From Microbulbifer sp. YPW16 (lineage in GTDB: Bacteria; Pseudomonadota; Gammaproteobacteria; Pseudomonadales; Cellvibrionaceae): a DNA stretch of 64,000 bases. The notes under the pieces are model-generated. The model was given only the letters and a program-made list of their open reading frames with translations, ran no database searches and had not been told where the DNA came from. This document shows positions 9,713 to 44,543 of the stretch, piece by piece; the first letter of the stretch is position 1; every line of letters begins with the position of its first letter. Both the position numbers and the translations under genes were made by a program. Location of the stretch: the NCBI RefSeq assembly GCF_021290385.1, contig NZ_CP089928.1, positions 1,782,501-1,846,500 of the forward strand, read 5' to 3'.

Positions 9713-9736
9713 CATCCTCCCCCGCGGGGGAGGATG
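9713..9736. promoter_or_regulatory. Inverted pair of MalT boxes upstream of malT
   Basis: CATCCTCCCC (9713-9722) and GGGGAGGATG (9727-9736) form a perfect inverted repeat with a 4-base CGCG centre; the symmetry extends to 9711-9738. Each arm matches the E. coli MalT box (GGGGA[TG]GAGG) at 9 of 10 positions. It lies 80 bp before the malT start. A weak hexamer (GATGCT, 9757-9762) stands at the 28-bp spacing, while a better one (CATAAT, 9770-9775) is 13 bp further on. This suggests autoregulation. No U-run follows, so it is unlikely to be a terminator. Confidence 0.65.
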
Positions 9737-9816
9737 TCACGCAGCGGTAGCCATGGGATGCTCATCATGCATAATTACGCCTGTACAAAAACCAATCAAC
9801 GGGCCGATTCTCAGCG

Positions 9817-12549
9817 ATGCTACTAGCCTCCAAATACAGCCTGCCGGACTGCCCGGAGAACACCCTGGCGCGCCCGCGCCTGCTCTCCCTGCTGGACCGG
9901 GGCGATATCGACCAGGTCATGCTGGTGACCGCCCCGGCGGGTTATGGCAAGACCACCCTGGTGTCCTCCTGGGCCGCCAACCAGGACAGCCCGGTGGCCT
10001 GGTTCTCGCTGGACAGTGGCGATAACGAACCGAGCCAGTTCTGCCGCTACCTGGTGGAGAGCGTCCACCGCGCCACCGGTAATGGCGTGCCTGAAACCCA
10101 CGCCCTGGTCAGCGCCCAGCAACGCCCCGACCCGTCACTGGTAGTGAGCCAGCTGCTGGCGGAGCTGCGCGGCCTGCCCAGCGAGCTGCGTATCGTGCTC
10201 GACGACTACCACCAGATCGACAGCGAGGCGGTGCACGACATCACCCGCTTCCTGCTGCGCCACGCACCCGCGGGTATCGGCGTGGTCCTTACCAGCCGCA
10301 GCCAGCCGCCGCTGGGGCTCGCCACCCTGCGGGTCCAGGGCCGCCTGCTGGAGCTGGGCAGCGACGAGCTGGCCCTGGATGTTGCGGAAACCGCACAACT
10401 GCTGCAGCAGCGCCTGCCCTTCAGCCTCGACCACGACCGCGTCGAGCAGCTGCACCAGCTCAGCGAGGGCTGGCCCCCGGCGGTGCAACTGTTCGCCCTG
10501 TCCGTGCGCAACGCCGAGGAAGTGGATCGATACCTGGGTGAGCTGGAGCAGGGCCACTCCCATATCCTCGATTACCTGGCCGAGGAAGTGCTGGAACGGC
10601 TGGAGCCACAACTGCGCGAGCTGCTCGCCTGCACCTCCATCCTCACCCGCGTCAATGCCACCCTGGCGGAGCGCCTGAGTGGCCTCGAGGGCGGCCAGCA
10701 GCTACTGGAGCAGACGGCACGCCGCGGCCTGTTCCTGCAGGCGCAGGACTCCAGTCGCCAGTGGTTCCGCTACCACCCGGTGTTCGCGCGCTTCCTCCAG
10801 CGCCAGCTGACCGAGAAAACCCGGCTGCAGGAACTGCACCGTATCGCCAGTGACACCTGGCAGGAGCTGGGGCAGCCGCTGGAGGCCCTGCGCCACGCAC
10901 TGGCGGCGGAGGATACCGAGCGCCTGCAGCAGCTGCTGCACACCCAGGGCGAGCAGTTCCTGCGTGAGGGGCAGATCCGCGTCCTCAATGACTGCCTGAC
11001 CTGGCTCGGCGCCGACAAGCTGCAGCGCAACGCCCGCTTTACCCTGATTGCCGCCAAGCTGGCGCGGGATAATTTTGAATACGACCAGTGCGAGAAGGTC
11101 CTGACCGCCGCAGAGAGCTGGTTGCAGCGCGAGGACCCGGAGCAGTGGCGTGATTTCGAGGGTGCCTTTGCCACCGTGCGCGCCCAGGCCGCCGTGGCCC
11201 GCGGCCAGACACTTGTAGCCAAGGAGTATGCCGAGGAGGCGCTGGAGTTGCTGCGCCCCGACCAGCTGGGCGAGCGTATCGCCGCGCTGCTGGTGGTGGG
11301 GGAAACCGGCTTCTGCCTCGGCGCGCTGGATGATGCCATCGACCATATGCGTGAAGTGGAAGCACTGGCGCTGGCCGAGAATGACCATCCCAGTGCCGCC
11401 TGGGCCATCTGCCAGCAGACCGAGATCGCCATCGCCCAGGGCCTGCTGAAGAAGGCTGCCGCCCTGCAGGAACGGGCCCAGCGGCTGGTGGAGGAACACC
11501 ACCTGGTGGGCCTGCCCATCTCCGAGTTTATCTGCCGGCTGGGCGGCCAGCTGGAGTGGGAGGACTGCCGCCTGGAAGACGCTGCCGCCTCGGCCCGGCG
11601 CGGCATGCAGATCAACCGCAAGGCCGGCGAACGCTGGCTGCTGCAGGAGTACAGCCTGCTGCTCAAGGTGGCCCAGGCCCGCGGCGAGCGGGACGAGTCG
11701 CTGGAATGGCTGTCGCGCATCGACCGCCTGCTGGCCGGCGAGCGCTACCACCGCGACTGGGTCGCCAATGCCGATGCGGCGCGGCTGCGCGCCTGGCGCG
11801 CCCTCAACGACCAGCAGGCCATCGCCGCCTGGCTGGAGCAGGCGCAGCCGGTAGCGGACCGTCCCAGCAACCATTTCGAGCAGTGCCATGGCCGCAACCA
11901 TGTGCGCGCCCTGATCGAGGTACACCGCTGGTCTGACGCCAACCGGCTGTTGAGCCGGCTGCAACAGGTGGCGCGCGAGTGCGGCCTGGTGACCGACTGC
12001 CTGCGCAACCTGGTGCTGGAAGCGCACCTGCTGTGGCTGCGGGAACAGCGCGAGGCCGCCGTGCATGCCATCCGCGAGGCCCTCAGCATCGCCGTGGAAC
12101 GGGATTTCAGGGCCAGCTTCCTGCAGGTCGGCAAGCCGCTGATCGTGATCCTCAAGGCCGCCATCGACAGCGGCCTGGGTGAAGCCGAGCAGGACAAGGC
12201 CCAGGAACTGATCCGCCTGGCCCAGCAGCAACCGGAACTGGATGGCGGAATCAGGATCGAGCTGGACGAGACCATCATCCGTGAAATCCTCGACAGCGAT
12301 GCGGTGCCCGACTTCCTGCGACACTCGCCGCTTACCCCGCGGGAGTGGCAGGTGCTCAACGCCATCCACTCCGGCCTGTCGAACGAGCGTATCGCCCGGC
12401 ACTTCAAGGTAGCGCCCAGCACCATCAAGACCCATATACGCAGCCTGTACCAGAAACTGGATGTGAAGGACCGCCAGGAGGCCATTGCCCTAGCCGAGCA
12501 GATGCTCCGCTCGGTGCAGGACCAGCCCTCCGACCAGGGTCATTCCTGA
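9817..12549 (+). CDS. malT: MalT-type transcriptional activator
   Basis: A 910-residue LuxR-family ATP-dependent activator with the MalT architecture (E. coli MalT is 901 residues): an N-terminal STAND NTPase with Walker A APAGYGKTT at 39-47 and a Walker B strand ending in Leu-Asp-Asp-Tyr near residue 130, a winged-helix and TPR-like superhelical middle (about 330-800), and a C-terminal LuxR helix-turn-helix at 839-895 (LTPRE start, then STIKTHIRSLYQKL). MalT binds ATP and maltotriose and activates maltodextrin genes. The neighbours, and GGGGAGGAGG-type boxes at five promoters here, support that role. MalT box pairs flank the gene on both sides. Confidence 0.92.
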   Translation: MLLASKYSLPDCPENTLARPRLLSLLDRGDIDQVMLVTAPAGYGKTTLVSSWAANQDSPVAWFSLDSGDNEPSQFCRYLVESVHRATGNGVPETHALVSAQQRPDPSLVVSQLLAELRGLPSELRIVLDDYHQIDSEAVHDITRFLLRHAPAGIGVVLTSRSQPPLGLATLRVQGRLLELGSDELALDVAETAQLLQQRLPFSLDHDRVEQLHQLSEGWPPAVQLFALSVRNAEEVDRYLGELEQGHSHILDYLAEEVLERLEPQLRELLACTSILTRVNATLAERLSGLEGGQQLLEQTARRGLFLQAQDSSRQWFRYHPVFARFLQRQLTEKTRLQELHRIASDTWQELGQPLEALRHALAAEDTERLQQLLHTQGEQFLREGQIRVLNDCLTWLGADKLQRNARFTLIAAKLARDNFEYDQCEKVLTAAESWLQREDPEQWRDFEGAFATVRAQAAVARGQTLVAKEYAEEALELLRPDQLGERIAALLVVGETGFCLGALDDAIDHMREVEALALAENDHPSAAWAICQQTEIAIAQGLLKKAAALQERAQRLVEEHHLVGLPISEFICRLGGQLEWEDCRLEDAAASARRGMQINRKAGERWLLQEYSLLLKVAQARGERDESLEWLSRIDRLLAGERYHRDWVANADAARLRAWRALNDQQAIAAWLEQAQPVADRPSNHFEQCHGRNHVRALIEVHRWSDANRLLSRLQQVARECGLVTDCLRNLVLEAHLLWLREQREAAVHAIREALSIAVERDFRASFLQVGKPLIVILKAAIDSGLGEAEQDKAQELIRLAQQQPELDGGIRIELDETIIREILDSDAVPDFLRHSPLTPREWQVLNAIHSGLSNERIARHFKVAPSTIKTHIRSLYQKLDVKDRQEAIALAEQMLRSVQDQPSDQGHS

Positions 12550-12560
12550 CTTTCTCTCGC

Positions 12561-12610
12561 CCTCCTCCCCACTCGGGGAGGAGGCATCAGTTGCCCGCCA
12601 TCGCCATACT
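12561..12610 (+). promoter_or_regulatory. MalT box pair and -10 of the GH13_23 gene
   Basis: CCTCCTCCCC (12561-12570) and GGGGAGGAGG (12575-12584) form a perfect inverted pair with a 4-base spacer, both arms exact matches to the E. coli MalT box. A -10-like CATACT (12605-12610) is centred 28 bp downstream of the centre of the proximal box, the spacing expected for a box at -37.5. Transcription would start near 12617, about 33 bases before the ATG at 12650. No U-run follows the hairpin, so a terminator for malT is less likely. Confidence 0.75.
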
Positions 12611-12649
12611 GACCCTATCCTGAGAAACGACTGCCGATGGGACGTAGTT

Positions 12650-14290
12650 ATGAGTGGCAACAACACCGAGTGGTGGCGCAACAGCGTTATCTACCAGATC
12701 TATCCGCGCAGCTTCTGCGACGCCAATGGCGACGGTATCGGTGACCTGGCGGGTATCACCAGCAAGCTCGACTATGTGCAGTCCCTGGGCGTGGATGCCA
12801 TCTGGATCTCACCCTTTTTCAAGTCGCCGATGGTGGACTTCGGCTACGACGTGTCCGACTACCGCGATGTGGACCCGATCTTCGGTAACCTGCAGGACTT
12901 CGACAACCTGATCGAGGCAGCCCATGCCCGCGGCCTGAAGATCATCATCGACCAGATCCTCAGCCACTCTTCCGACCAGCACCCCTGGTTCCAGGAGAGC
13001 CGCTCCAGTCGCGACAACCCGAAAGCGGACTGGTATGTCTGGGCAGACCCCCGGCCCGATGGCAGCGCCCCCAACAACTGGATGTCCAACTTCGGCGGCA
13101 GCGCCTGGCGCTGGTGCACCCGCCGTCGCCAGTACTACCTGACCAACTTCCTCAAGGAACAGCCGGACCTGAACCTGCACAACCCGGAAGTCCAGGAGCA
13201 ACTGCTGGCAGACCTGAAGTTCTGGCTCGACCGCGGCGTCGATGGTTTCCGCCTGGACGCCATCAACCACGCATTCCACAACCAGTCCCTGCAGGACAAT
13301 CCTGCGCGGCCGCTGGAGCTGGACGAGAAGGGCCAGCCACCGGTGAATACCTACCATTACCAGTGGCATATCCACGACAAGTCCCAGCCGGAGAACCTGG
13401 CATTCCTGCAGCGCGTGCGCGCCCTGATGGACCAGTACCCGGAAACCGTGACCGTGGGCGAAGTGGGCGACGACAATACCCACAAGATCATGGCCGATTA
13501 CACCACCGAAAACCGGCTGCACATGGCCTACTCCTTCGACCTGCTGGCCGAGGATTGCAGTGCCGGTTTCCTGCGCGAGACCCTGCGCAAGAACCAGCGG
13601 GTGATCGAGGAGGGCTGGCCCTGCTGGTCCATCAGCAACCACGATGTGCCGCGCCCCATGACCCGCTGGAACAGGGGCTTTGACCCGGAACAGGCTGCGG
13701 CACGCGTGCCGATGTTCCTGCTGACCCAGCTGGCCCTGCGCGGCAGCGTGTGCCTGTACCAGGGTGAGGAACTGGGCCTGGAGGAGGCGGATATCGCCTT
13801 CGAGGACCTGGTGGATCCCTACGGCATCAACCTGTGGCCGGAATTCAAGGGCCGCGACGGCTGTCGCACTCCCATGCCCTGGTCCAACGGCGGCGAGATC
13901 AATGCGGGTTTTTCCCGGGTCAAGCCCTGGCTGCCGGTGCCGGACGAGCATTACCACAAGGCGGTAAGCCTGCAGGAGGACGATTCCGCATCGATGCTGA
14001 ACCGCTTCCGCGCGCTGCTCAAGTGGCACCACGAGTGGCCGGGACTGGCCACTGCCGAGCAGGAAATCGTCGACACCGGCGGCGACCTGCTGGCGTTCTA
14101 CCGCCGCACCGGGACAGAAGAGTTTTTTGTGGTCGCCAACTTCGGCCACGAAGCCGGCTCCCTGGAGCTGCCCGCAGAATTTAGCAACGCACGCGATATC
14201 ACCCCGGCGGGCTTCGCCGGCAAGGTCACCGACAGCAGCATCGCCCTGCCCGTGGCGGGTGCCCGCGTGCTCTACCGGAAAATTAACTAG
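12650..14290 (+). CDS. Cytoplasmic alpha-glucosidase (GH13, subfamily 23 type)
   Basis: A 546-residue GH13 enzyme without a signal peptide, so it should act in the cytoplasm and release glucose from maltose or short maltodextrins. Conserved region II (GFRLDAINH) gives nucleophile Asp203, region III (VGEVGDDN) acid/base Glu271 and region IV (SNHDVPR) Asp332. These positions and the Asp-Ala-Ile-Asn signature agree closely with the halophilic Halomonas alpha-glucosidase of subfamily 23. The N-terminus (WWRNSVIYQIYPRSF) is typical of oligo-1,6-glucosidase-like enzymes, so isomaltose-type specificity is possible. It is preceded by a MalT box pair and followed by a terminator at 14434. Confidence 0.92.
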   Translation: MSGNNTEWWRNSVIYQIYPRSFCDANGDGIGDLAGITSKLDYVQSLGVDAIWISPFFKSPMVDFGYDVSDYRDVDPIFGNLQDFDNLIEAAHARGLKIIIDQILSHSSDQHPWFQESRSSRDNPKADWYVWADPRPDGSAPNNWMSNFGGSAWRWCTRRRQYYLTNFLKEQPDLNLHNPEVQEQLLADLKFWLDRGVDGFRLDAINHAFHNQSLQDNPARPLELDEKGQPPVNTYHYQWHIHDKSQPENLAFLQRVRALMDQYPETVTVGEVGDDNTHKIMADYTTENRLHMAYSFDLLAEDCSAGFLRETLRKNQRVIEEGWPCWSISNHDVPRPMTRWNRGFDPEQAAARVPMFLLTQLALRGSVCLYQGEELGLEEADIAFEDLVDPYGINLWPEFKGRDGCRTPMPWSNGGEINAGFSRVKPWLPVPDEHYHKAVSLQEDDSASMLNRFRALLKWHHEWPGLATAEQEIVDTGGDLLAFYRRTGTEEFFVVANFGHEAGSLELPAEFSNARDITPAGFAGKVTDSSIALPVAGARVLYRKIN

Positions 14291-14433
14291 AGAACGGCAG
14301 GTAGCCCGAATCAGTCAGTTTACGAGGCACCCCGCGGCCCTGAACCGCCATTCGTCACCGCGGGGCGCCTCACCTCACCCTATTTCTCTCGTCACTTGTA
14401 CCGCAATGGATGGCACTTTTGACATCTCTCTTC

Positions 14434-14456
14434 GCCGGCCCCGAGCCGGCTTTTTT
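14434..14456 (+). terminator. Rho-independent terminator of the GH13_23 gene
   Basis: GCCGGC (14434-14439), a 5-base loop and GCCGGC (14445-14450) are followed directly by six T. It lies 143 bp downstream of the alpha-glucosidase stop. Confidence 0.85.
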
Positions 14457-14515
14457 CTGCCCGCAATTCCCTCGGGCAGTGCATCCGGGTGTCAGGCGGG
14501 CCCCAAGAGCACGAT

Positions 14516-14770
14516 TCAATCGTCGCGCTTGCGGCTGATCACCTGGAAAGACTGGTCGAGCTTGACCACCCAGCTTCCCCGGCCCTCGCAACTGGCGCTG
14601 ATTACCCGGTATCCGTAATCCTTTACCTCGATGACGCCCAGCTCACAGCTGACCGAATCGAGCGCCTGTTTAATTTTCGCCTTCTCTTCTTCGGTTGGCT
14701 TCCGGTCCGCTGCTAATGCGGCCGGCACCAGGACAAGCCAGGCCAACAGGGCCAGGGATACTCGTTTCAT
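14516..14770 (-). CDS. Small exported hypothetical protein
   Basis: An 84-residue protein with a good Sec signal peptide (Met-Lys-Arg, hydrophobic core, Ala-Leu-Ala-Ala cleavage near residue 20). The mature part is about 64 residues: a charged helix and then a strand-rich section with two Cys (positions about 42 and 60) that could form a disulfide. The overall pattern resembles small PepSY-like or inhibitor-like periplasmic proteins, but I cannot place it in a family. It stands alone between the alpha-glucosidase and the amine oxidase. Confidence 0.7.
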   Translation of the reverse strand: MKRVSLALLAWLVLVPAALAADRKPTEEEKAKIKQALDSVSCELGVIEVKDYGYRVISASCEGRGSWVVKLDQSFQVISRKRDD

Positions 14771-14986
14771 TGGCTCTACTCCTCACGGAACCTGCTCGCG
14801 CCCGCGCGGGAAATGCACGGGGACCGCACTCACCAGGGAAACCAACAGGTGCTCCCGCCGGGCACAGGCTGTATACACGGCAGATAGTAGGGTCTGCCTC
14901 CCAACATGCGTAGACCGGTCGCACAGACGTGCGGGATCCGGCGCAGGTCACCGCTGCCATATGACATAAAACATCCATCACGTAAT

Positions 14987-15014
14987 AAAAAAGGCGCACC
15001 GTTTCCGGTACGCC
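14987..15014 (-). terminator. Terminator of the amine oxidase gene
   Basis: Read on the minus strand: GGCGTACC, a 6-base loop, GGTGCGCC (8 bp stem with one G-U pair), then six U (14992-14987). It is 30 bp past the stop of the gene at 15044. Confidence 0.85.
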
Positions 15015-15043
15015 TCTCGCAGGCAAAACCCAGCCAGCGGCTG

Positions 15044-16714
15044 TCAGCCCTGGTGGATTTCCTGTGCGGCCCGCTCGCCGGTGCTGATGGCACCATCGAT
15101 GTAGCCAAACATTTCCAGGGCGGTGTGTTCGCCACAGAAATGGATGTTGCCTTCCTGCAGGCCCTGCGCCCCCCACCAGCCGGTGTAACCACCGAAAGTC
15201 TGGGTGGAGTAGGAACCCTTCGACCAGGGGTTCGCGGCCCACTTGGACAGCATGGCGGTGCCGGTAAAGGCATCACTGGTGCCCGGGAATACGTTATCCA
15301 CGATGCCGAAGAAGTGGTCCAGGTCCCTCTTCGACGGCGGCGCGAACGGCTTGTCGCCACCAATTTCCCTGCCGTAGCTGCCACCGAAGAAGTCCACCAG
15401 GATGCCATCCTGGCTGCCGGTTACCGAAGTGGAATCCCAGGTATCAAACAGCTCCGGACGGCCCACATAGGTAACACCATTCGGGGTGAACTGCTGGCCG
15501 TCGACCACCTGCGGCTGTGTCCACGGACGGGTCGCGCAGTGCACCGCCAGCTTGCCGTTGGTACCGAAGCCCATTTCCTCGATCGCACGGCGCTTCTGCG
15601 GCAGGAAGGAGTCGTAAATGCGCGCATCGATATCCACATCGCGCAATACCGAGAACGGCAGTGCCAGTACCAGCCGATCACATACATACTCGTAACCATC
15701 GGCAAAAGTCAGCTTGTACGGGCCGTTGATATCACCCTTGACGGCAATCAGCTTGCGGCCGGTCTCGATGGTACCTTCCGGCAGCTCCTCTACCATGCGC
15801 GTTACCAGCTGGTCGTTACCACCGGAGATACGGAAGCGCTCATCGGTGCCCGCCAGCGGCAGTGCCGTGTTGATCGGGTTCCAGGCCAGCAGGTAGATCA
15901 GGTTCAGGGCGGTGGTGTCTTCCGGCTGTATACCGTATTCCGCCACGATGTCCGCCTGGAAGACCTGGCCCATATTGGAGTTGGCCCCGATACCCACGTG
16001 ATCCAGCCAGGTGTTCACGTCGATATGGTCCAGCTCCTTGTGCATGGCATTGTGCCAGTCGTAGGTGGGCAGCCAGGGCGCATCCTGCTGGGCCTGCTTG
16101 AAAATCTTGTACACGTCGCGCCACTCGGCATTCAACTGGTGCTCGGTATAGCGCTGGCCATTCACCCAGTACAACTCATTGCCACCGGGTACGGCATTGC
16201 CGTTCACGTCCTCAACGTCCAGCCCCAGCTGGTTGGCCAGGTTGCGCGCATAGCTGTGCTCGGTGGAGATCAGCTCACCACCACGCTCCACGGGACGGCC
16301 GAAGATATCGCGGTTGGTGTTTACACGACCGCCCAGGCGGGTGTTGCCCTCGAATACCTTGCTGGTGGCGCCGTTGTACTGGTACAGGCGGTGCGCACAG
16401 CGGATGCCCGCAACGCCGCCACCGATAATGGCGACACGGCCCGGGTCAGTGGCACCACCGGCAATGGCCTGCGCCGGGCGTGAGGCGGTACCCGCGGCAC
16501 CGGCGGTGCCCAGCACTGCGGCGCCCAGGCCCAGCTGCTTGAGGAACTGGCGACGGCCTTCTTCGGAGGCGTTCTTGCCGCCGTGGCGTGCACCTTCATT
16601 GATGATGTCGAGACTTTCGTCGGCGGGAATGCCGGTCTTGTCGGAGAGTTCCTGTGCCGCGCGCATACGGCGCAGCAGTCCCGCGATAGGGGAAAGGGTC
16701 TTACGGCTTCTCAT
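15044..16714 (-). CDS. Tat-exported FAD-dependent amine oxidase
   Basis: A 556-residue flavoprotein of the monoamine oxidase/polyamine oxidase superfamily, catalysing oxidative deamination. The Rossmann motif IIGGGVAGI is at 95-103, followed by the second FAD motif Arg-Leu-Gly-Gly-Arg and a C-terminal segment with Gly-Glu-His-Thr and Gly-Tyr-Ile-Asp-Gly-Ala that closes the FAD site. A Tat motif (RRQFLK, 54-59) precedes a hydrophobic stretch and an Ala-Gln-Ala cleavage site near residue 83, so the folded holoenzyme should be exported. The 53-residue segment before the Tat motif is unusually long. No partner gene indicates the amine. Confidence 0.87.
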   Translation of the reverse strand: MRSRKTLSPIAGLLRRMRAAQELSDKTGIPADESLDIINEGARHGGKNASEEGRRQFLKQLGLGAAVLGTAGAAGTASRPAQAIAGGATDPGRVAIIGGGVAGIRCAHRLYQYNGATSKVFEGNTRLGGRVNTNRDIFGRPVERGGELISTEHSYARNLANQLGLDVEDVNGNAVPGGNELYWVNGQRYTEHQLNAEWRDVYKIFKQAQQDAPWLPTYDWHNAMHKELDHIDVNTWLDHVGIGANSNMGQVFQADIVAEYGIQPEDTTALNLIYLLAWNPINTALPLAGTDERFRISGGNDQLVTRMVEELPEGTIETGRKLIAVKGDINGPYKLTFADGYEYVCDRLVLALPFSVLRDVDIDARIYDSFLPQKRRAIEEMGFGTNGKLAVHCATRPWTQPQVVDGQQFTPNGVTYVGRPELFDTWDSTSVTGSQDGILVDFFGGSYGREIGGDKPFAPPSKRDLDHFFGIVDNVFPGTSDAFTGTAMLSKWAANPWSKGSYSTQTFGGYTGWWGAQGLQEGNIHFCGEHTALEMFGYIDGAISTGERAAQEIHQG

Positions 16715-17849: not shown

Positions 17850-17873
17850 CCCGCTCACCTGGCGAGCATAAAA

Positions 17874-17906
17874 AAAGCCCCCTTCCCTGCCCGGGAAGGG
17901 GGCTTT
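17874..17906. terminator. Bidirectional terminator between convergent genes
   Basis: A perfect 14-bp inverted repeat (arms 17874-17887 and 17893-17906) around a 5-base loop, GC-rich inside and ending in AAA/TTT, with further A upstream. It can terminate both the L,D-transpeptidase (+) and the symporter (-). Confidence 0.9.
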
Positions 17907-17968
17907 CGTTTGCGAGTACTGCCGCGCGATTCAGCGACTGCGCCAGCGTACCAGCGCGTCCCGGTGCC

Positions 17969-21206: not shown

Positions 21207-21257
21207 ATCATGGCACGGCGGGGGTGGCCCTCCATCCTCCCCCGCCGGGGGAGTAGG
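21207..21257 (-). promoter_or_regulatory. MalT box pair and -10 of the MFS gene
   Basis: CATCCTCCCC (21233-21242; GGGGAGGATG on the minus strand) and GGGGAGTAGG (21248-21257) form an imperfect inverted pair with a 5-base spacer. On the minus strand CATGAT (21212-21207) is centred 28 bp from the centre of the leftward box, fitting a MalT-dependent promoter for the MFS gene with a leader of about 185 bases. The rightward arm could also serve the GH13 gene, but no -10 stands at the matching distance. Confidence 0.65.
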
Positions 21258-21345: not shown

Positions 21346-21399
21346 CGCTCTCCCCCTGCCGGGGAGGGGGATCTTTGCCGCCACCAGGTGCCGCACAAT
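21346..21399 (+). promoter_or_regulatory. Degenerate MalT box pair before the exported GH13 gene
   Basis: CGCTCTCCCC (21346-21355) and GGGGAGGGGG (21361-21370) form a weaker inverted pair with a 5-base spacer. A CACAAT hexamer (21394-21399) is centred 31 bp from the proximal arm, 3 bp more than at the other promoters, and would start transcription about 32 bases before the ATG at 21438. Boxes and spacing are both imperfect. Confidence 0.45.
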
Positions 21400-35816: not shown

Positions 35817-35853
35817 AAAAAAGCCCTTGTAATAAAACTATTACAAGGGCTTT
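35817..35853 (-). terminator. Strong hairpin between receptor and halogenase genes
   Basis: A perfect 15-bp inverted repeat (35820-35834 and 35839-35853) around a 4-base loop, followed on the minus strand by a U-run. It lies 28 bp past the receptor stop and 36 bp before the halogenase start. It should end most receptor transcripts and let only a fraction continue, or protect the receptor mRNA 3' end. Confidence 0.85.
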
Positions 35854-35880
35854 GGTTGGCTCAACCTCTAACCGCGGGGA

Positions 35881-38661
35881 TTACAGCTCGTAGCTGAAGC
35901 CCAGCAGGTAGATGCTGCCATAGCTCTGGTAGTCACGAACCTGCAGAGAGTTGTCACCACTCAGGGTGGTGAACGGTTCATCGGTCAGGTTCTGACCCTG
36001 CAGGTACACAGACAGCCCTTCCAGGCCGCTGATGCCGGCATCGGCAAAGTCGTAGCCCAGCTGGACATCGACAATGGTCTCGCCGACAACGTCAACCTGC
36101 TGGGTGCTGAAGCCCAGGCCGTATACCTCGCCCTTGAAGTCATCACGCTTGCGCATGCTGGCCCTGGCGGAGAAACCGTAGTTCTCGTAGTAGGCAGTGA
36201 GCGTCTGGATGCTGTCGGACAGGCCCGGCAGCTGGTAGTCGTTGCCGCTCGGGTCCTGGATGTCAGACTCCAGGCCGGTATGGCTGGCCAGCAGGCCGAA
36301 ACCGTCCAGGCTCTCGGAGAAAATGTTGAACGGCAGGGTAACCGCCAGCTCGTAGCCACTCAGGGTACCGCCGCCGCCATTCACTTTACCGGTGCCGGTG
36401 GCAGTGGAGAACTCGGGCACTTCACCAGTAGCCGGATCCGCGACGCCAGCCAGCTCAACCTGGTAGTTGCCGTCGAAAGTCCACTGGTCCAGGTCTTTCC
36501 AGAACAGCGCCACAGAGAAGTAACCTTCTTCGCTGAAGTAGTTCTCGTAGGAGAGGTCCACGCCCAGCGCTTCTTTCGGCTCCAGCTGCGGGTTACCACC
36601 GCTGATGCTCCAGAAGTTGCCGTTGTCGTCCGGCTGCTGGTTGTAGTTAACCGAGACAGAAGCGTTCATCTCATCCAGGCGGGCACGGGAGATGGTCTGG
36701 GCTGCACCGAAGCGCAGGGTCTGGCGCTCGTCCAGTTCCAGGGCCAGGTTCAGGCTCGGCAGGAAGTGGCTGTAATCGTGGCTGATGTCGGTCGGGGTAG
36801 CCACTACCAGGCCGTCAATCGCTTCAGCCGCGAAACCCTGGGAGTTCTGCTCGGTGTAGACATAACGCAGGCCGGCGTTACCGGTCAGCGGCAGGCCCGC
36901 GACCTGGGTCTCGAAGTTGGCCTGGGCGAAGGCAGAGGTAATTTCCTCACCCACAGTCCAGGAGCCGGTCAGGTGCTTGATGTCCGTCAGGGATTCGGCC
37001 AGCAGGTTGTAATAACCATCATTGAGCAGGCCAGCAGCGTCATAGGCAATCATGTCGCCCATGCCGATGAAATCCAGGGAAGCGGTCCCCAGGCGGTACT
37101 CTTCCGGAACTTCCAGGGTGCCCGGGAAGTTGGACAGGGTCATGTAGAAACCCTCCGACTTCTTGGACTTCTCGCGGTCACGGTAGGAAACGCCGTAGGA
37201 GATTTCGTTAACGATACCCACTTCCACCATCTGGCTGGCAGCCAGCTTGAGGGAGGTCAGCTCGTCGTCGATTTCCGGGGTATTCAGGAAGCCGTCCTGC
37301 GCCGCGTTGACGTAGGGGTCGCCATCTACCAGGCCGTATTCACTGTTCAGCGCTGCACTGTAACCCCAGGTCAGCGGGCCGCCCAGCTGGATCAGGTTCC
37401 AGTCACTGTAATCCAGGTCGTGATCAAACTTGGCGCCGGTATTACCACCGTCAAAGGTGTAGGACAGGTTGTCCGCGACACCCTCGCTGTCGCCACGTCC
37501 GGTACCGGAATAGCTCTCGAAGCTCCAGATATCACGCTTGACTGCAGAGTGGGCAGCGTCGAATTCGATCTGCAGGGTATCGGTGAGGTCGTACTTGGTG
37601 TTGAAGCCGAAAGACTTCAGGTCCGCAGCGCGGGTTTCCAGGTCGTTACGCACAACAACGCGCTGGCCCTCGGTAGTGGCACCGGTGATAAAACCGCTGG
37701 ACGGGTCCACGGTGGCGCTTTCCGGGCTGATGGAACCCTGGCCCCAGGCAAAGGGAATCTCGATACCGCGCAGGATCTTCTCGTCAGTGAAGTCCACATA
37801 CAGGGCATCGAAGGTCATGTTCAGTTTTTCGTTCGGCTGCGCCTCGACCACCAGCATGGTGCTGTCGCGATCCAGGACAGAGGAACGTACAAACGGCTTG
37901 GCACCGCCCAGGATGGAGTAGGTATTGCCATCATCCGCGGTGAATTCCGGGTAGCCCCAGGAATTCCAGCGCTCTTCCTGGTTCGGGGAGCTCATGGTGT
38001 TGTAGGCGAAAGCTACACCAATCTTGTCATCGGCGAACTGGTCGATGTAAGAGAAAGTCGCGCGATGGCCGTCGTCCTCACCATCGGGGTTCAGCTTGTC
38101 GAAGCTGGTCATCTCGTACTGGGTGTTCACCTTGACGACACGCTCGCCACGCTCCAGCGGCTTGACGGTCTGCATGTCGATGACACCGGCGATACCCTCG
38201 GCCTCGAGGCTGGCGGTGGGCGTCTTGTAGACGGTCACGCCGCTCATGATCTCGGAGGGGTACAGGTCGAATTCCACACCGCGGTTATCGCTGATGGAAA
38301 CCTGCTCACGACCATTGAAGGTGGTGGCACTCTCGTTTTCACCGAAACCACGGATAGACACCCGGCTGGCGCGGCCATCGAGGCGCTGCGCGGCCAGGCC
38401 TGGCAGGCGGGCAATGGATTCGGCAATGGAGGAGTCCGGCAGTTTGCCGATATCTTCTGCAGAAATGGCCTCAACAACGGCCTTGGCATCGCGCTTGGTG
38501 TCGATGGAATCCATCACACTCTTGCGGAAACCGGTAACGGTTACCTCTTCCAGCGAACTCGCGCCCTCTTCCTGTGCGTAGGCGCCAATGGAAGTGGCCA
38601 CAGAGGCTGCGATGGCTGCGGACAGCAGGGCTGGCCGGAACCGCTTGTTGTTAGAACTCAT
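35881..38661 (-). CDS. TonB-dependent outer-membrane receptor for maltodextrins
   Basis: A 926-residue receptor of the TonB-Xanth-Caul group. Signal peptide (about 1-30, Ala-Tyr-Ala-Gln), TonB-box region (Glu-Glu-Val-Thr-Val-Thr-Gly, about 39-45), plug domain with Ile-Pro/Lys-Leu-Pro-Asp-Ser-Ser-Ile-Ala-Glu-Ser-Ile-Ala-Arg-Leu-Pro-Gly and Val-Ser-Ile-Arg-Gly-Phe, then a long beta-barrel ending in an aromatic C-terminus (Phe-Ser-Tyr-Glu-Leu). It imports a substrate using TonB/ExbBD energy; maltodextrin is inferred from the MalT boxes and neighbours. Of three consecutive ATG codons, 38661 is best spaced from GGGAG. Confidence 0.88.
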   Translation of the reverse strand: MSSNNKRFRPALLSAAIAASVATSIGAYAQEEGASSLEEVTVTGFRKSVMDSIDTKRDAKAVVEAISAEDIGKLPDSSIAESIARLPGLAAQRLDGRASRVSIRGFGENESATTFNGREQVSISDNRGVEFDLYPSEIMSGVTVYKTPTASLEAEGIAGVIDMQTVKPLERGERVVKVNTQYEMTSFDKLNPDGEDDGHRATFSYIDQFADDKIGVAFAYNTMSSPNQEERWNSWGYPEFTADDGNTYSILGGAKPFVRSSVLDRDSTMLVVEAQPNEKLNMTFDALYVDFTDEKILRGIEIPFAWGQGSISPESATVDPSSGFITGATTEGQRVVVRNDLETRAADLKSFGFNTKYDLTDTLQIEFDAAHSAVKRDIWSFESYSGTGRGDSEGVADNLSYTFDGGNTGAKFDHDLDYSDWNLIQLGGPLTWGYSAALNSEYGLVDGDPYVNAAQDGFLNTPEIDDELTSLKLAASQMVEVGIVNEISYGVSYRDREKSKKSEGFYMTLSNFPGTLEVPEEYRLGTASLDFIGMGDMIAYDAAGLLNDGYYNLLAESLTDIKHLTGSWTVGEEITSAFAQANFETQVAGLPLTGNAGLRYVYTEQNSQGFAAEAIDGLVVATPTDISHDYSHFLPSLNLALELDERQTLRFGAAQTISRARLDEMNASVSVNYNQQPDDNGNFWSISGGNPQLEPKEALGVDLSYENYFSEEGYFSVALFWKDLDQWTFDGNYQVELAGVADPATGEVPEFSTATGTGKVNGGGGTLSGYELAVTLPFNIFSESLDGFGLLASHTGLESDIQDPSGNDYQLPGLSDSIQTLTAYYENYGFSARASMRKRDDFKGEVYGLGFSTQQVDVVGETIVDVQLGYDFADAGISGLEGLSVYLQGQNLTDEPFTTLSGDNSLQVRDYQSYGSIYLLGFSYEL

Positions 38662-38700
38662 CATCATCTCCCTGGACTTATCGTTATGGTGAGTACCCTA

Positions 38701-38751
38701 ATCCTAGGTTTACCCATCGTCCTTGACCTCCTCCCCCGAGGGGGGAGGAGG
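38701..38751 (-). promoter_or_regulatory. MalT box pair and -10 of the receptor gene
   Basis: GGGGAGGAGG occurs once on each strand, at 38736-38727 (minus) and 38742-38751 (plus), as an inverted pair with a 5-base spacer; both arms are exact matches to the E. coli MalT box. On the minus strand TAGGAT (38706-38701) is centred exactly 28 bp from the proximal box centre. Transcription would start near 38694, about 33 bases before the receptor ATG. Confidence 0.8.
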
Positions 38752-38843
38752 GGGGAGAGATCACGGCGCCCCTTCTTGGGGCGTCAGATCGCACCATCAC
38801 TTGTCTGGTTTTCTGGTTAAAAGTGCTTCAAATGGCCCGTTGC

Positions 38844-39806
38844 TCAGCGGTCCAGCTGGGCCGCCGCCCCCAACAGGGCCTGGAAACCGGCATTCAGTGT
38901 GTATACCGGCACCGTCTGCATCCATTCCCGCAGGCGCCCCTTGGCCAGGAAGCGCTGTTCGAACTCGCTCTCGGGGAGCAGGCTCTCGATCCGCGGCAGG
39001 ATCCCCCCGCCCAGGAAGACGCCACCGCGGGCAGCGAAATAGGCGGCTACATCCCCGGCAGTGCTGCCCAGGAAGTTGAGAAAATCGATCAGTGTTTCGC
39101 GACACATGGGGTCAGTCCCCTCCAGCCCGCGACCGCTGACATCCGGCGGCGTGAGTTCTTCGGCCTCACGGCCGTTGAGCGCACAGACCGCGCGGTAGAG
39201 GTTAACCAGCCCGCTGCCGGACAGGATCCACTCGTTGAACACCGGCTGCTGTTCCCGCACCAGGATCTGCAGCAGCTCCATTTCCCGCTGGCTCGCCACC
39301 GGCAGGTTGGCATGCCCGCCCTCGCCCGCCACCACGTAATGGCGCCCGTCCTCGCGGATCAGGCCGGCGACCCCCAGCCCGGTACCTGGCCCCAGTACCG
39401 CCATGGTGGCGTCCTCGATCCGGGGCGCGGCGCGCAATACCTTGTATTCATGCTCTCCCAGCAGGGGCAGGGACAGTGCCAGCGCGGCAAAGTCATTCAT
39501 CAGCTGCGCCTCGGCCAGCCCGTGTCGGGCCCGCAGCCCCGCGGCATCGATATGCCACCCCAGGTTGGTCATGTAGACCCGCCCACCGGTGTCATTTTTT
39601 TCCACCGGTCCGGCACAGGCGATACAGGCCCGCTCAGGTACCGGCTGTTCCAGCCCCTCAAGCCAGTGCTCCAGTGCGGCGTCAAAACCGCCGAATTCGC
39701 GGCAGTTCACCACTTTGAGCGCATCCAGCGAGTAACCGGTGTCGGTTGGATTGGCAATGGCAAATCGGGCGTTAGTGCCACCGATATCCGCGACGATACT
39801 TGTCAT
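38844..39806 (-). CDS. glk: Glucokinase (Glk family)
   Basis: A 320-residue ATP-dependent glucokinase of the bacterial Glk (PF02685) type, not ROK. It phosphorylates the glucose released by the glucosidases. Motifs: Asp-Ile-Gly-Gly-Thr-Asn-Ala-Arg-Phe (phosphate 1, about 7-15), Asn-Asp-Phe-Ala-Ala with the catalytic Asp, Gly-Pro-Gly-Thr-Gly-Leu-Gly, Gly-Glu-Gly-Gly-His-Ala-Asn and Val-Phe-Leu-Gly-Gly-Gly-Ile. The ATG at 39806 follows AGGAAG. It is 189 bp downstream of malG on the same strand; the intervening 39807-39995 could hold its own promoter. Confidence 0.93.
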   Translation of the reverse strand: MTSIVADIGGTNARFAIANPTDTGYSLDALKVVNCREFGGFDAALEHWLEGLEQPVPERACIACAGPVEKNDTGGRVYMTNLGWHIDAAGLRARHGLAEAQLMNDFAALALSLPLLGEHEYKVLRAAPRIEDATMAVLGPGTGLGVAGLIREDGRHYVVAGEGGHANLPVASQREMELLQILVREQQPVFNEWILSGSGLVNLYRAVCALNGREAEELTPPDVSGRGLEGTDPMCRETLIDFLNFLGSTAGDVAAYFAARGGVFLGGGILPRIESLLPESEFEQRFLAKGRLREWMQTVPVYTLNAGFQALLGAAAQLDR

Positions 39807-39995
39807 TGGTCTTCCTGTTATCTTCCCCCGGGGTCGGCGGGCGCGTAAGTTACGGGCCCCGCCCCGATAAATCCAGTTTTCTGGATGATTTTTCACCAGC
39901 TTTTTTAGTGAACCGGGCGTCACCTTCCCACCCGGGCATCCAGAAATTGTAAGAGGTGAATTCGATTCCTGCTGTGGTCAGTGGTCCCGGTCTTC

Positions 39996-40937
39996 CTAAC
40001 CCTTGACCGCGCCGGCGGACAACCCGGATACCAGGAATCTCTGCAGCGCCATAAACAGGGCAATCACCGGCAACGACACCAGGATGGCCCCGGCGGCGAA
40101 GTAACCCCATTCCGACGCATAGTCGCTGACGAAAAAACGCAGCCCCACCGGGACCGTGTAGAGCGCCTCATCATCCATGAAGATGGACGCGAGGATGAAC
40201 TCGTTCCAGGCCGTCATAAATGAGAAGAGCCCGGTCACGGCAATCGCCGGTCGCGCCAGCGGCAGGATGATCCGGTAAAAAATCGTGAACCGTGACGCCC
40301 CTTCCAGCAGGGCCGATTCCTCGATCTCGTACGGCAAGGTGTCGAAGTACCCTTTCAGCATCCAGACACAGAACGGCAGCGCCGTAATGGCATAGACCAG
40401 GATCAGCCCCAGCCAGCTGTTCCCCAGCCCCAGCCACTGCACCACGATCACGTAGAGCGGAATCAGCATCAGCACCGCGGGAAACATCTGGGAAATCAGG
40501 AACAGCACCAGTCCCCGGTCGCGACCGGGGAAACGGAAACGGGAAAACGCGTAAGCGGCAGAACAGGACAGCGCCAGCCCCACCACCGTGGTGGACAGTG
40601 AGACCACCAGGCTGTTCAGCAGCCAGCGCATAAACGGCTGCTCAGTAAGCACCGCGCGAAAGTTTTCCAGGGACCACTGCTGCGGCAGCGGTACCAGCGC
40701 CACCAGCTGCTGCCAGAAGCCGGCATCATCCGGCAGCTCCACCAGCTGCAGCGACTGCTGCCCGGAAAAAGCCAGGCTCACCACCCACAGCAGGGGGTAG
40801 ACGACCACGGCGCCGGCAAACAGCAGCAGGGCAAATCGCCAGCTGAAGATATCACCCAGCACGGCTTTAATACGCGCAGTGGCTCCCGGCCCGGCCGCCG
40901 CGGCCAGGACTCCCGTGGCGATCCGCGAACTGCTCAT
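39996..40937 (-). CDS. malG: Maltodextrin ABC transporter permease MalG
   Basis: A 313-residue inner-membrane permease with six transmembrane helices. The EAA loop (Glu-Ser-Ala-Leu-Leu-Glu-Gly-Ala-Ser, then Pro-Leu-Ala-Arg-Pro) that docks on the MalK ATPase is present. The N-terminus is longer than usual by an Ala/Gly-rich segment before helix 1. The ATG at 40937 overlaps the TGA stop of the upstream fused gene, so translation is coupled. It is the third gene of malK-malEF-malG. Confidence 0.92.
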   Translation of the reverse strand: MSSSRIATGVLAAAAGPGATARIKAVLGDIFSWRFALLLFAGAVVVYPLLWVVSLAFSGQQSLQLVELPDDAGFWQQLVALVPLPQQWSLENFRAVLTEQPFMRWLLNSLVVSLSTTVVGLALSCSAAYAFSRFRFPGRDRGLVLFLISQMFPAVLMLIPLYVIVVQWLGLGNSWLGLILVYAITALPFCVWMLKGYFDTLPYEIEESALLEGASRFTIFYRIILPLARPAIAVTGLFSFMTAWNEFILASIFMDDEALYTVPVGLRFFVSDYASEWGYFAAGAILVSLPVIALFMALQRFLVSGLSAGAVKG

Positions 40938-43264
40938 CGGCCCGCCTCCAGTGTGCGCGACACCCGCATCTGCCACATGGCATAGCACAGCAGCAACACC
41001 AGGATCACCATGGAATAGGCCGCCGCATAAGCGTACTGGTATTTCTCGAACCCGATACGGAACGCCCGGGTAATCAGGATATCGTTGGCGCCCGCCGGCG
41101 CCCCGTCACTCACCAGGTAAATCACATTGAACATGTTGAACGTCCACACCACCGACAGGATCACCGCCGGCACCAGCACCGGTTTCAGCAGCGGCAGGGT
41201 AATCCGGCGGAACTGGATCCAGCGACTGGCACCCTCTACCCGCGCCGCCTCATAAAGGTCGCGGGGAATCGACTGCAGGCCGCCCAGGATCACCACCATC
41301 ATAAACGGGATGCTCAGCCAGACATTGGTCACCAGCCCGGTAAAGAAGCTGGTGCCCACCGAGTCGAACCAGGCCACCGGCGCCAGCCCCACCACCTGCA
41401 GCGCCTGGTTGATGACACCAAATTGCGGGTGGAACATGCCCTTCCACACCAGCGCAGTGATGTAATTGGGAATCGCCCACGGCAGGATCAACAGCACCCT
41501 GAACCAGGTACGCCCGAAAATGGGCCGGTCCAGCGCCAGCGCCAGTACCAGGGCCAGCCCCACGGCCAGGATCACATTGCTGGCGGTCCAGGCAATGGTC
41601 ACCAGCAGGGTCCAGTAGAAGTTGTCGTAATTGATGCTGCGCCCGTCGCCCTCGCCGTACCAGAGGTTCCAGTCGCCGAGGATACTGGCGTAGTTATCCA
41701 GTCCCAGCCAACGGGAGGCAAACGGGGTGTTTTCGTTCAGCAGGGTGGTGTCCGTGAAAGACAGCAGCAGGCCATACAGCAGCGGGAAGAACACCAGCAG
41801 CAGCATGCCCAGCATGGCCGGCAGGATATACAGGTAGGCGGTGCGATGGGTGCGCCAGCTGGCCGCAATTCGCCGACGCCGCCGCCACAGCAGCACAGCG
41901 AGCCCGGACAGGCACAGTGCGATGGCCAGCCAGACCCAGCCCGGTACCGACCGGGGTGTGTCACTTCTTTGCTGCGCCAGCTCCAGGGCTGCCACATCCC
42001 GCTGTACCTCGCCCTGCAATCGCTGCATTTCCTCCGCCGGCCGGGCCGCGCCCTTCACCACTTTTTTCAGGGCGTTTTCCAGCGGCTTCCACAGCAATGT
42101 CATCTGCGGCAGGTTGGGGATAGCGACCGCGGTATCCAGCTGGCGACGGAATGCCTGGGCACTGGCGTCGGCCATCACTTCAGGATGGGAGAAAACGGCC
42201 AGGTTGGCCGGCAACTGGCCACCGGCGACCGCCATGCGCAACCCGGCCTCCTCGCCGGTCAGGTAGCGCATCAGGCCATAGGCCGCCTGCCGCTCCTGGC
42301 TCCACGGGGACAGGAAAATGCCCTCCACCGCCATCCAGGGCGCCAGCGGCGCACCGCTGGCATTGTTGTAGGGCAGCGGGGCCACCCCGTAATCCATATC
42401 CGGGCTGATTTCCCCCAGCATCCAGGGGCCACTGATTACCATGGCCGCCCGCCCCTGGTTGAACAGGTTGGTCACCAGGGTGCTGTTGGGCTCTTCCGGC
42501 AGGATGCGCTCTTCGCGCACCCAGCCCAGCAGCTGCTCCAGCGAGCGAATATTGCCGTCACTGTCCAGCGCCAGCCGACCGGAGCGATCGAATGGCCCGC
42601 TGCCGAAACTGTTCAGCAGGGCGCCGTGAAAGAAGGGTTCGGTGTAGTTGTAGGCGAGTCCGAAGCGGCCGCGCTGGCGGTCGGTTTGGCTGCGGGCCAG
42701 GGCCACCAGCTCGTCCGTGGTCCCGGGAGGGGAGTCCACCAGCGCCCGGTTGTAGATCAGCGCGGTGCTCTTGAAGTTGAATGGCAGGCCGTAGAGGCGG
42801 CCCTCGAAGCGCATCGCCTCCACCAGGCTGGCGGGGAAGCGCCGCAGGACTTCTGCGGAAACCAGGTCATCCACCGGGGCAACGGTGTTACCGGCGCGGG
42901 CCCAGCCGCCGATGCGGTCATGGCCAAAGATGAACAGGTCCGGCCCCTGTCCGCGCGGGACTGCAGCGGAGAGTTTGTCGGCAAAACTGCCAAATGGCAC
43001 CGCCAGCGCCCGCACCCGCGTTTCCCGCTGGCTGCGGTTGTACTGCTCCAGCAGCTGCTCCAGTGCCTGGCGCTCCTCACCGCGATAGCCGTGCCAGAGC
43101 AGCAGCTCGTCGGGCTGCTGGGCGGCAACCGGCAGGGTGGCAAAGCCAAGCAGGAGGAAAAGCACCGACAGCAACAGGTGACCCGCGGGCAGGCGCCCAC
43201 GCACAGGGAATTTGCACTGCAACTCCCCGTCGGTCAGGTCCCGGCCGCTGGCGGTGCCGGTCAC
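40934..43264 (-). CDS. Fused maltodextrin-binding protein and permease (MalE-MalF)
   Basis: A 776-residue protein joining two ABC-importer subunits that are normally separate. Residues 28-48 are a hydrophobic signal or anchor (with a possible Ala-Ala-Gln cleavage site). Residues 53-430 are a family 1 solute-binding protein (Trp-His-Gly-Tyr start, Phe-Asn-Phe-Lys-Ser-Thr-Ala-Leu-Ile-Tyr-Asn-Arg, Gly-Arg-Ala-Ala-Met-Val-Ile-Ser-Gly-Pro-Trp). A transmembrane helix (440-460) with five following Arg leads back to the cytoplasm, and 476-776 is a MalF-type permease with its EAA loop at 672-692. E. coli MalF's large P2 loop is absent (only about 45 residues at 505-549). Start is GTG 43264, overlapping the malK stop. 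Confidence 0.92.
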   Translation of the reverse strand: MTGTASGRDLTDGELQCKFPVRGRLPAGHLLLSVLFLLLGFATLPVAAQQPDELLLWHGYRGEERQALEQLLEQYNRSQRETRVRALAVPFGSFADKLSAAVPRGQGPDLFIFGHDRIGGWARAGNTVAPVDDLVSAEVLRRFPASLVEAMRFEGRLYGLPFNFKSTALIYNRALVDSPPGTTDELVALARSQTDRQRGRFGLAYNYTEPFFHGALLNSFGSGPFDRSGRLALDSDGNIRSLEQLLGWVREERILPEEPNSTLVTNLFNQGRAAMVISGPWMLGEISPDMDYGVAPLPYNNASGAPLAPWMAVEGIFLSPWSQERQAAYGLMRYLTGEEAGLRMAVAGGQLPANLAVFSHPEVMADASAQAFRRQLDTAVAIPNLPQMTLLWKPLENALKKVVKGAARPAEEMQRLQGEVQRDVAALELAQQRSDTPRSVPGWVWLAIALCLSGLAVLLWRRRRRIAASWRTHRTAYLYILPAMLGMLLLVFFPLLYGLLLSFTDTTLLNENTPFASRWLGLDNYASILGDWNLWYGEGDGRSINYDNFYWTLLVTIAWTASNVILAVGLALVLALALDRPIFGRTWFRVLLILPWAIPNYITALVWKGMFHPQFGVINQALQVVGLAPVAWFDSVGTSFFTGLVTNVWLSIPFMMVVILGGLQSIPRDLYEAARVEGASRWIQFRRITLPLLKPVLVPAVILSVVWTFNMFNVIYLVSDGAPAGANDILITRAFRIGFEKYQYAYAAAYSMVILVLLLCYAMWQMRVSRTLEAGR

Positions 43265-44364
43265 AGCACCGGCTCCGCGTGCCCGGCCGGCTGCGCCAGC
43301 CGGATACGCTGGCGGCTGCCGGCGTCGAACAGGTAGACCGCCTGCGGGTCGAAGGCGAGTTCAATGGTCTCGCCCGCGGCCAGCGGGCGCAGGCCGGGCA
43401 GGCGCGCGACCAGGCGCTCCTCGCCCACCCCCAGGTGCACCAGCATTTCCGCACCCAGGGTCTCCACCATCTCGATAGCGGCGCGCAGGCGCGGCCAGTG
43501 GTCCGGCGCGGCGGCGGCATATTCAAGTTTTTCCGGGCGCAGCCCCAGCAGCAGCTCGCCGCCCAACCCGGAAAGGCCCGCCAGCGACAGGTCCAGCAGC
43601 CGGTTGGATACCCGCTCGCCGCCGTTGCGCACCGGGATGATGTTCATCGGCGGCGATCCCATGAAACCGGCCACGAACACATTGTCCGGGTCGTTGTAGA
43701 GTTCCATCGGGGTTCCCACCTGCATCAGCTCCCCGGCGTTGAGGATCGCGATGCGCTGGCCGAGGGTCATGGCCTCGACCTGGTCGTGGGTAACGTAAAC
43801 CGAGGTGGTGGCAAACTCCCGGTGCAGCCGGGCGATATTGGCCCGCATCTGCACCCGCAGCTCGGCGTCGAGGTTGGACAGAGGCTCGTCGAACAGGAAT
43901 ACCTGCGGGTCGCGCACCATGGCGCGCCCCAGGGCCACACGCTGGCACTGCCCCCCGGACAGCTGCCCGGGCTTGCGCCTCAGCAGCTCGGCGAGCCCCA
44001 GGGTCTGGGCGGCGCGCTCGATTTTTTCGCGGATAACCGCTTCCGGCTCCCGGCGCACCCGCAGGCCGAAGGCCATGTTCTCGAACACGGTCATGTGCGG
44101 GTAGAGGGCGTAATTCTGGAACACCATTGCCACGTCGCGCTCGCCGGGCGCCACGTCATTGACCAGCCGATCGCCGATCCACAGCTCGCCACCGCTCACC
44201 GACTCCAGGCCGGCAATCATGCGCAGGGTGGTGGACTTGCCGCAGCCGGAGGGCCCTACCAGTACCATAAACTCCCCGTCCCGCACGGACAGGTCCAGGC
44301 CCGGCACCGTTGGCTGGCTGCCCGGGTACTGCTTGGCTACGCGCTTGAATTCAATGCCGGCCAC
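43261..44364 (-). CDS. malK: Maltodextrin ABC transporter ATPase MalK
   Basis: A 367-residue CUT1-family ATPase. Walker A GPSGCGKST (37-45), signature LSGGQ (135-139), Walker B FLFDEP (156-161), H-loop His193, then a C-terminal regulatory OB-type domain (about 235-360). It energises import with the fused MalE-MalF and MalG encoded downstream; in E. coli MalK also restrains MalT. The GTG at 44364 gives a standard N-terminus and has a GAGG 7 bases upstream; a TTG five codons further upstream is less likely. The stop overlaps the GTG of the fusion gene. Confidence 0.93.
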   Translation of the reverse strand: MAGIEFKRVAKQYPGSQPTVPGLDLSVRDGEFMVLVGPSGCGKSTTLRMIAGLESVSGGELWIGDRLVNDVAPGERDVAMVFQNYALYPHMTVFENMAFGLRVRREPEAVIREKIERAAQTLGLAELLRRKPGQLSGGQCQRVALGRAMVRDPQVFLFDEPLSNLDAELRVQMRANIARLHREFATTSVYVTHDQVEAMTLGQRIAILNAGELMQVGTPMELYNDPDNVFVAGFMGSPPMNIIPVRNGGERVSNRLLDLSLAGLSGLGGELLLGLRPEKLEYAAAAPDHWPRLRAAIEMVETLGAEMLVHLGVGEERLVARLPGLRPLAAGETIELAFDPQAVYLFDAGSRQRIRLAQPAGHAEPVL

Positions 44365-44493
44365 GGCGATACCTCGCAATGGCGCGATCGCCGGTGGGAA
44401 ACTGGGAGCTGGGATTAGTCATCGACGCACAACTTCGTCTTGTTCTGTATCGCGCACAATACTGCCATGCATTCACCTGCAGCACAGCCGGGT

Positions 44494-44543
44494 ATTCTTG
44501 ACCTTCAGGTCCGCCACGGCATCCACCCCGCCAAGGGCGTAGG
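44494..44543 (-). promoter_or_regulatory. MalT box pair and -10 of the malK operon
   Basis: CATCCACCCC (44520-44529; GGGGTGGATG on the minus strand) and AGGGCGTAGG (44534-44543) form an imperfect inverted pair with a 4-base spacer, each 8 of 10 against the best boxes here. On the minus strand AAGAAT (44499-44494) is centred 28 bp from the proximal box. Transcription would start near 44487, about 120 bases before the malK GTG. Individually weak; supported by the shared geometry. Confidence 0.55.

Follow-up and report, generated by a model that had tools for sequence, protein, structure and literature searches.

The window analysed here, a 64,000-nucleotide stretch of the complete, 4.19-Mb genome of Microbulbifer sp. 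YPW16 (NZ_CP089928.1), carries a maltose (mal) gene cluster whose promoters are marked by a recurrent palindrome: two copies of the MalT box, facing outward from a short spacer, with a -10-like hexamer centred 28 bp from the gene-side (proximal) box. MalT is a model STAND regulator, and the palindromes very probably serve as its operators. The cluster encodes a MalT homologue, a GH13-family glycosidase, an MFS sugar transporter (a GPH-type match, below cut-off), a cyclomaltodextrinase in which the Pfam N and C domains were both found, a GH31-like enzyme, more GH13 enzymes, a TonB-dependent receptor, a glucokinase and a malK-EF-G ABC importer. The relevant features are as follows, with distances given from centre to centre.

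9713-9736, plus strand: box pair of malT, GGGGAGGATG on the minus strand (9713-9722) and GGGGAGGATG on the plus strand (9727-9736), 14 bp apart.
9757-9762, plus strand: -10-like GATGCT of malT, poor, 28 bp from the proximal box; relatives have CACACT, CAGACT or similar.
9768-9775, plus strand: TGCATAAT, probably the basal extended -10 of malT, at 41 bp from the box.
9817-12549, plus strand: malT, encoding the proposed activator (910 aa; scores 884 bits with NF003420, whose cut-off is 537).
12561-12584, plus strand: box pair of the GH13 gene, two perfect boxes 14 bp apart; 46 of 47 orthologues are paired.
12605-12610, plus strand: -10-like CATACT of the GH13 gene, 28 bp from the proximal box.
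12650-14290, plus strand: GH13-family glycosidase gene, alpha-glucosidase-like; NCBIfam matches all below cut-offs.
21207-21212, minus strand: -10-like CATGAT of the MFS gene, 28 bp from the proximal box.
21233-21257, minus strand: box pair of the MFS transporter gene, proximal box 21233-21242 on the minus strand, 15 bp apart; 38 of 40 orthologues are paired.
21349-21373, plus strand: box pair of the cyclomaltodextrinase gene, diverged, CAGGGGGAGA on the minus strand and GAGGGGGATC on the plus strand (21364-21373), 15 bp apart.
21394-21399, plus strand: -10-like CACAAT of the cyclomaltodextrinase gene, 28 bp from the proximal box; CAGAAT in relative G110 and CAAAAT in G083.
38701-38706, minus strand: -10-like TAGGAT of the TonB-receptor gene, 28 bp from the proximal box.
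38727-38751, minus strand: box pair of the TonB-dependent receptor gene, two perfect boxes 15 bp apart; 30 of 31 orthologues are paired.
44494-44499, minus strand: -10-like AAGAAT of malK, 28 bp from the proximal box.
44520-44543, minus strand: box pair of malK, weak, GGGGTGGATG and AGGGCGTAGG, 14 bp apart.

An earlier note, made from the letters of this DNA, had listed the palindromic arms, a 28-bp spacing at four promoters and a MalT homologue at 9817. All the listed arms were found where it had placed them, the spacing is exact at 12605, 21212, 38706 and 44499, and the homologue is a MalT equivalog by its NF003420 score. Its product carries TPR_MalT and GerE domains, and the closest named MalT, from M. 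sediminum TT37, is 97% identical. Relative to E. coli MalT the overall identity is 37%, with 40 of the 75 C-terminal columns identical; judged by this alignment, the DNA-binding region is conserved.

Box pairs were sought upstream of orthologous genes in a set of 196 promoters, consisting of malT (48; 47 from the genus plus the sister genome G007), GH13 (47), MFS (40), the close TonB-receptor orthologue (31) and malK (30). Where the TonB receptor was fragmented, as in four genomes, the N-terminal piece was used, and a 5'-truncated TonB match (G082) was excluded. With a score matrix trained on inverted pairs and a threshold of 18 bits, 146 of the 196 regions gave a pair: malT 28/47, GH13 46/47, MFS 38/40, TonB 30/31 and malK 4/30. 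All 146 are inverted, with outward-facing GGA(T/G)GA cores, and 125 have a spacer of 4-5 bases, or 8-9 nt between cores; some of the other spacers are register slips in G-runs. Mononucleotide shuffles reached 18 bits in 3 of 3920 cases. Because the matrix had been trained on inverted pairs, a recount was made with the plain E. coli consensus in all orientations, allowing at most one mismatch. Of the same regions, 50 then had inverted pairs spaced by 14 bp, 37 by 15 bp, 15 by 17 bp and 7 by 12 bp; direct repeats contributed about 9 region counts, all at 27-34 bp, against the 87 inverted at 14 or 15 bp, and shuffling produced one pair of any kind in 1960. The full box, GGGGA(T/G)GAGG, is perfect in both arms at 12561 and 38727, and most other arms depart from it at no position or one. 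No extra box was found beyond the distal arm at the orthologous GH13, MFS, malT or malK promoters. The palindrome pattern is real, conserved and functional-looking, far beyond chance.

The distance to the -10 was examined in the 148 promoters with a clear pair (malT 28, GH13 46, MFS 36, TonB 30, malK 8). In 141 of these, a hexamer of the form nAnnnT is found at a distance of exactly 28 bp on the gene side; on the far side this is so in 7. By gene, the gene-side figure is 28/28 for malT, 46/46 for GH13, 30/30 for TonB, 94% for MFS and 3/8 for malK. Only 28 bp is common to the four strong gene groups, other offsets being high within single families. The -10 hexamers themselves differ between genes (CATACT, TAGGAT, CASAAT, CACACT), and the spacing is therefore not one copied sequence. 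The same promoters lack a good -35: the best match to TTGACA is 1-3 of 6 positions in 134 of the 148 and 4 of 6 in the other 14.

Perfect, G+C-rich inverted repeats of this kind could in principle act as RNA hairpins or terminators, and the copy at 12561, situated 12 bp past the end of malT and thus after its stop codon, invites that view. So does a perfect GGAGGA palindrome in another genus member (G064, C1:1025611-1025632, locus L036) that lies between pilin-like and usher-like open reading frames (ORFs), where a hairpin would make sense; no tie to a mal gene was found for it. However, the palindromes precede the putative -10 by a constant 28 bp and hence fall outside the transcript concerned, and no T-run follows them by eye. 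The arms, moreover, are identical in just 18 of 148 pairs and vary mostly independently: they agree at position 5 in 55 pairs against 60.8 expected, with position 9 as the exception (91 against 74.8). Such independence is as expected of two protein half-sites. On position, independent arm variation and fixed spacing we reject the hairpin or terminator explanation as very improbable.

In its strict form, CNTCCTCCCC-N2-8-GGGGAGNANG, the palindrome occurs at four sites genome-wide (9713, 12561, 21233 and 38727), all within the mal cluster of the window, and the reversed control gave 0 matches in the whole genome. The 16-base core with at most two mismatches and a spacer of 4 or 5 recovered the same four sites plus one at 944480 (the reversed control gave 2 matches per strand in each of two scans). 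No mal context was noticed in the sequence flanking this near-match, whose genes were not annotated. Across the genus, 59 strict palindromes were found in 39 genomes, and 57 of them sit 62-176 bp upstream of a mal-type gene. The two others, for which no link to mal genes could be made, are the G064 copy and one at G081 C13:69947, which is close to glucokinase and precedes a membrane-protein ORF. The core palindrome is present in 39 of 48 genus genomes versus 2 of 96 other family genomes (reversed control, 3 of 144 genomes). In G030 and G141, which belong to the family but not the genus and have the palindrome, no relative of a window protein adjoins it. Of the 144 family genomes, 49 have a MalT scoring over the curated cut-off, namely 47 of the genus plus G007 and G113.

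A different local or global regulator with a GGAGGA-type palindrome could be responsible instead of MalT, and since MalT is found in 47 of the 48 genus genomes its mere presence does not discriminate. Yet the half-site corresponds to the MalT box of E. coli, by the consensus quoted in PMC7567727, and is perfect at 12561 and 38727; the -10 spacing is the one found at mal promoters of E. coli; very few palindromes in the family fall outside the genus that carries MalT; and the MalT-bearing sister G007 has the same layout at its GH13 gene. Another regulator is accordingly judged very unlikely. In a distant gammaproteobacterium, G283, which gives no MalT match at E <= 1e-150, four palindromes of the form TCCTCCCC-N7-GGGGAGGA were seen (C9:66501, C15:44315, 54574 and 56528); they possibly belong to another regulator or a repeat family.

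From the observed sequence, spacing, orientation, conservation and gene context, we infer binding and activation by MalT, its inducer and its autoregulation. Once activated, presumably by maltotriose and ATP like its E. coli counterpart, MalT would bind through two of its DNA-binding domains, one on each outward-facing box of the form GGGGA(G/T)GA(G/T)G. The box on the gene side would take the place of the -35, its centre 28 bp from that of the -10, and recruit RNA polymerase to promoters lacking a good -35, with direction decided by the side that bears the -10 and not by the palindrome. The predicted regulon in the host genome would include the GH13 glycosidase, the MFS transporter, the cyclomaltodextrinase operon, the TonB receptor and malT, and weakly the malK-EF-G operon. 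The earlier proposal of one MalT regulon thus stands as regards the conserved box, the constant 28-bp spacing and the genus-wide conservation, and falters at malK, for which membership is weak.

Several results weigh against this assignment. malT is without a pair in 19 of 47 species, and malK orthologues are mostly pairless, 22 of 30 giving none in the selection of the spacing set and 4 of 30 reaching 18 bits. The sequences compared are related and so not independent, and an offset of 34 bp also scores 61 of 148, a result of conserved malT and GH13 sequence through common descent. With MalT near-universal in the genus (47/48), co-occurrence within it cannot discriminate. The palindrome also turned up in 13 of 368 other genomes sampled evenly from the class; MalT at E <= 1e-150 was found in one of the 368, itself without the palindrome, so a lone palindrome is no proof of a MalT site. 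Finally, the boxes in the E. coli comparison below were accepted at up to three mismatches, for which the shuffle rate is 3-15% per promoter.

The malT promoter appears to combine two signals. The 41-bp position from the malT box holds nAnnnT in 28 of 28 malT pairs, and CATAAT or TACAAT is present upstream in 45 of 48 malT genes, palindrome or not. The extended -10 at this position is strongly conserved as TGCATAAT or TGTACAAT, also in species that lack the palindrome. A MalT-dependent promoter would thus have been added to a basal extended -10 promoter located 13 bp further downstream, probably yielding positive feedback. Autoregulation of malT is likely in the 28 of 47 species with a pair; as the basal-like -10 is present also without the palindrome, feedback looks like a lineage-specific addition. 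For E. coli malT, control by CRP and Mlc is described in PMC3161199, and the portion of that source drawn on here names no MalT feedback. The Microbulbifer layout, by comparison, predicts malT autoregulation, a feature not named there for E. coli.

The symmetry of the arms suggests a general bidirectional switch firing both flanking genes, and the earlier note had proposed that one element could drive both directions. This proposal is not supported for the host genome, given the far-side count of 7 among 148 promoters. The divergent MFS and cyclomaltodextrinase genes do not share a two-way element, each direction having its own (21233-21257 and 21349-21373), and the far-side neighbour at 12561 and at 38727 is not divergent. 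The weak pair that the earlier note had put at 21346 is better read with its register shifted by 3 bp, after which CACAAT falls at 28 bp; both the element and the spacing recur in G089, G110 and G083. In other species, far-side nAnnnT is found at 27 bp in 13 of 36 MFS promoters (TAGGAT, TAGCAT or similar), and in the seven such two-sided loci that were checked the divergent gene is GH31 in six and cyclomaltodextrinase in one. There the MFS element is probably a true two-way element. As a general property bidirectionality is unlikely, and on the far-side counts and separate elements it is rejected for the host genome, where the palindromes look one-way; it is kept for a subclade at one promoter.

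The TonB-receptor and malK promoters show further variation. At the former, a conserved nGGGAGAA abuts the distal arm (30 aligned; window region 38752-38760) and is perhaps a weak third MalT box, placed as a direct repeat. Eleven species have a distant TonB receptor (best segments about 30-46% identity) with the same palindrome and TAGGAT at 28 bp, beside glucokinase. In 5 of these 11 (L053, L238, L062, L059 and L241), a perfect, CRP-like TGTGAN6TCACA was seen by eye about 10 bp beyond the distal arm. At the orthologous promoters, a CRP-like site of this form matching at 8 or more of 10 positions was found beside 0 of 30 TonB, 0 of 46 GH13, 0 of 8 malK, 1 of 28 malT and 1 of 36 MFS pairs; a CRP site was thus not seen as a constant neighbour of these pairs. 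The malK arms at 44520 are nearly unchanged in two near relatives (G089 and G110). In the malK operon, a 776-aa ORF (40934-43264, minus strand) joins a MalE-like binding protein (residues 47-418) to a MalF-like permease (about 470-770). The fusion looks conserved, because in 30 genus malK loci the alignment extends as far as residue 477-528, interrupted by a single stop at one of them.

The fuller picture, which we hold tentatively and place a little below an even chance, is that Microbulbifer has cut the multi-box MalT array down to a minimal two-box operator, on which two MalT DNA-binding domains form an inverted, two-fold pair separated by about 1.4 helical turns; that the operator feeds back on malT in some 60% of species, where a MalT-dependent and a basal promoter overlap; that in one subclade a single copy fires the MFS transporter and GH31 genes both ways; and that 11 species have retained the element although the TonB receptor under its control was replaced or has diverged too far to be recognised. 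Asymmetric E. coli MalT sites were reportedly called puzzling by Danot and Raibaud in 1993. Two boxes in one fixed layout would constitute a minimal natural MalT promoter, helpful for asking about protomer number and geometry, and the layout would tie TonB-receptor glucan uptake to MalT in a marine polysaccharide degrader.

In both E. coli and Microbulbifer, the regulator is a MalT equivalog. The E. coli malP, malK, malE, malZ and malS promoters resemble those of Microbulbifer in having a gene-side box (at most three mismatches) with nAnnnT at 28 bp, the sole spacing common to the five and one absent at E. coli malT; at two mismatches or fewer, a 28-bp box is retained at malP and malS only. 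As for the nearest good box further upstream, malP, malK and malZ have an inverted one, malS a weak inverted one and malE one in direct orientation. Vidal-Ingigliardi is said to have described, in 1991, extra direct-repeat MalT boxes in E. coli, and several minus-strand boxes were found in our scan of malP, malK and malZ. Microbulbifer, in contrast, has a single pair and does not show two boxes in direct repeat. The earlier note's contrast between direct-repeat and palindromic layouts therefore holds mainly for the additional direct-repeat boxes, missing in Microbulbifer, and was otherwise overstated: a close inverted pair exists already at malP of E. coli, with 12 bp between centres as against mostly 14-15 bp in Microbulbifer. 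Given that malP pair and the shared 28 bp, the novelty is one close inverted pair without upstream direct repeats; on promoter sequence, it is a new layout variant, a simplified form of the known E. coli-type MalT promoter. No paper on MalT in Microbulbifer was among the matches listed in the open-licence PMC literature.

Two other genomes extend the comparison. The sister genome G007 (Microbulbifer sp. NKW57; classified in another genus) has MalT over the cut-off, with malT followed directly by the GH13 gene, whose promoter, like those of Microbulbifer, combines inverted boxes at 14 bp from each other with a CATAAT at 28 bp. G508, of the same order and another family, has the same gene order, MalT over the cut-off, and a box with CATCAT at 28 bp. 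Unlike in Microbulbifer, its inverted partner is weak (three mismatches) and 22 bp away, closer to the E. coli layout. The malT genes of G007 and G508 have no upstream box pair. The closest experimental precedent, so far as the portion of PMC7567727 drawn on here describes it, is the MalT palindrome of Actinoplanes sp. SE50/110, TCATCC-5nt-GGATGA, found at 17 mapped starts, where maltose-dependent activation is backed by malT deletion and overexpression. That regulator comes from another phylum, and the regulon as described there includes no maltose genes, whereas in Microbulbifer the predicted regulon is the maltose cluster. The cores are also closer together, 5 nt between them and 11 bp centre to centre, than the 8-9 nt and 14-15 bp of Microbulbifer (PMC7567727). 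As in Microbulbifer, however, the palindrome is an inverted pair of the MalT core with outward GGA(T/G)GA, and its 3' end lies 34.4 +/- 1.0 nt from the start (PMC7567727); the corresponding core-to-start distance in Microbulbifer would be about 34-35 nt, assuming a transcription start 6-7 nt past the -10.

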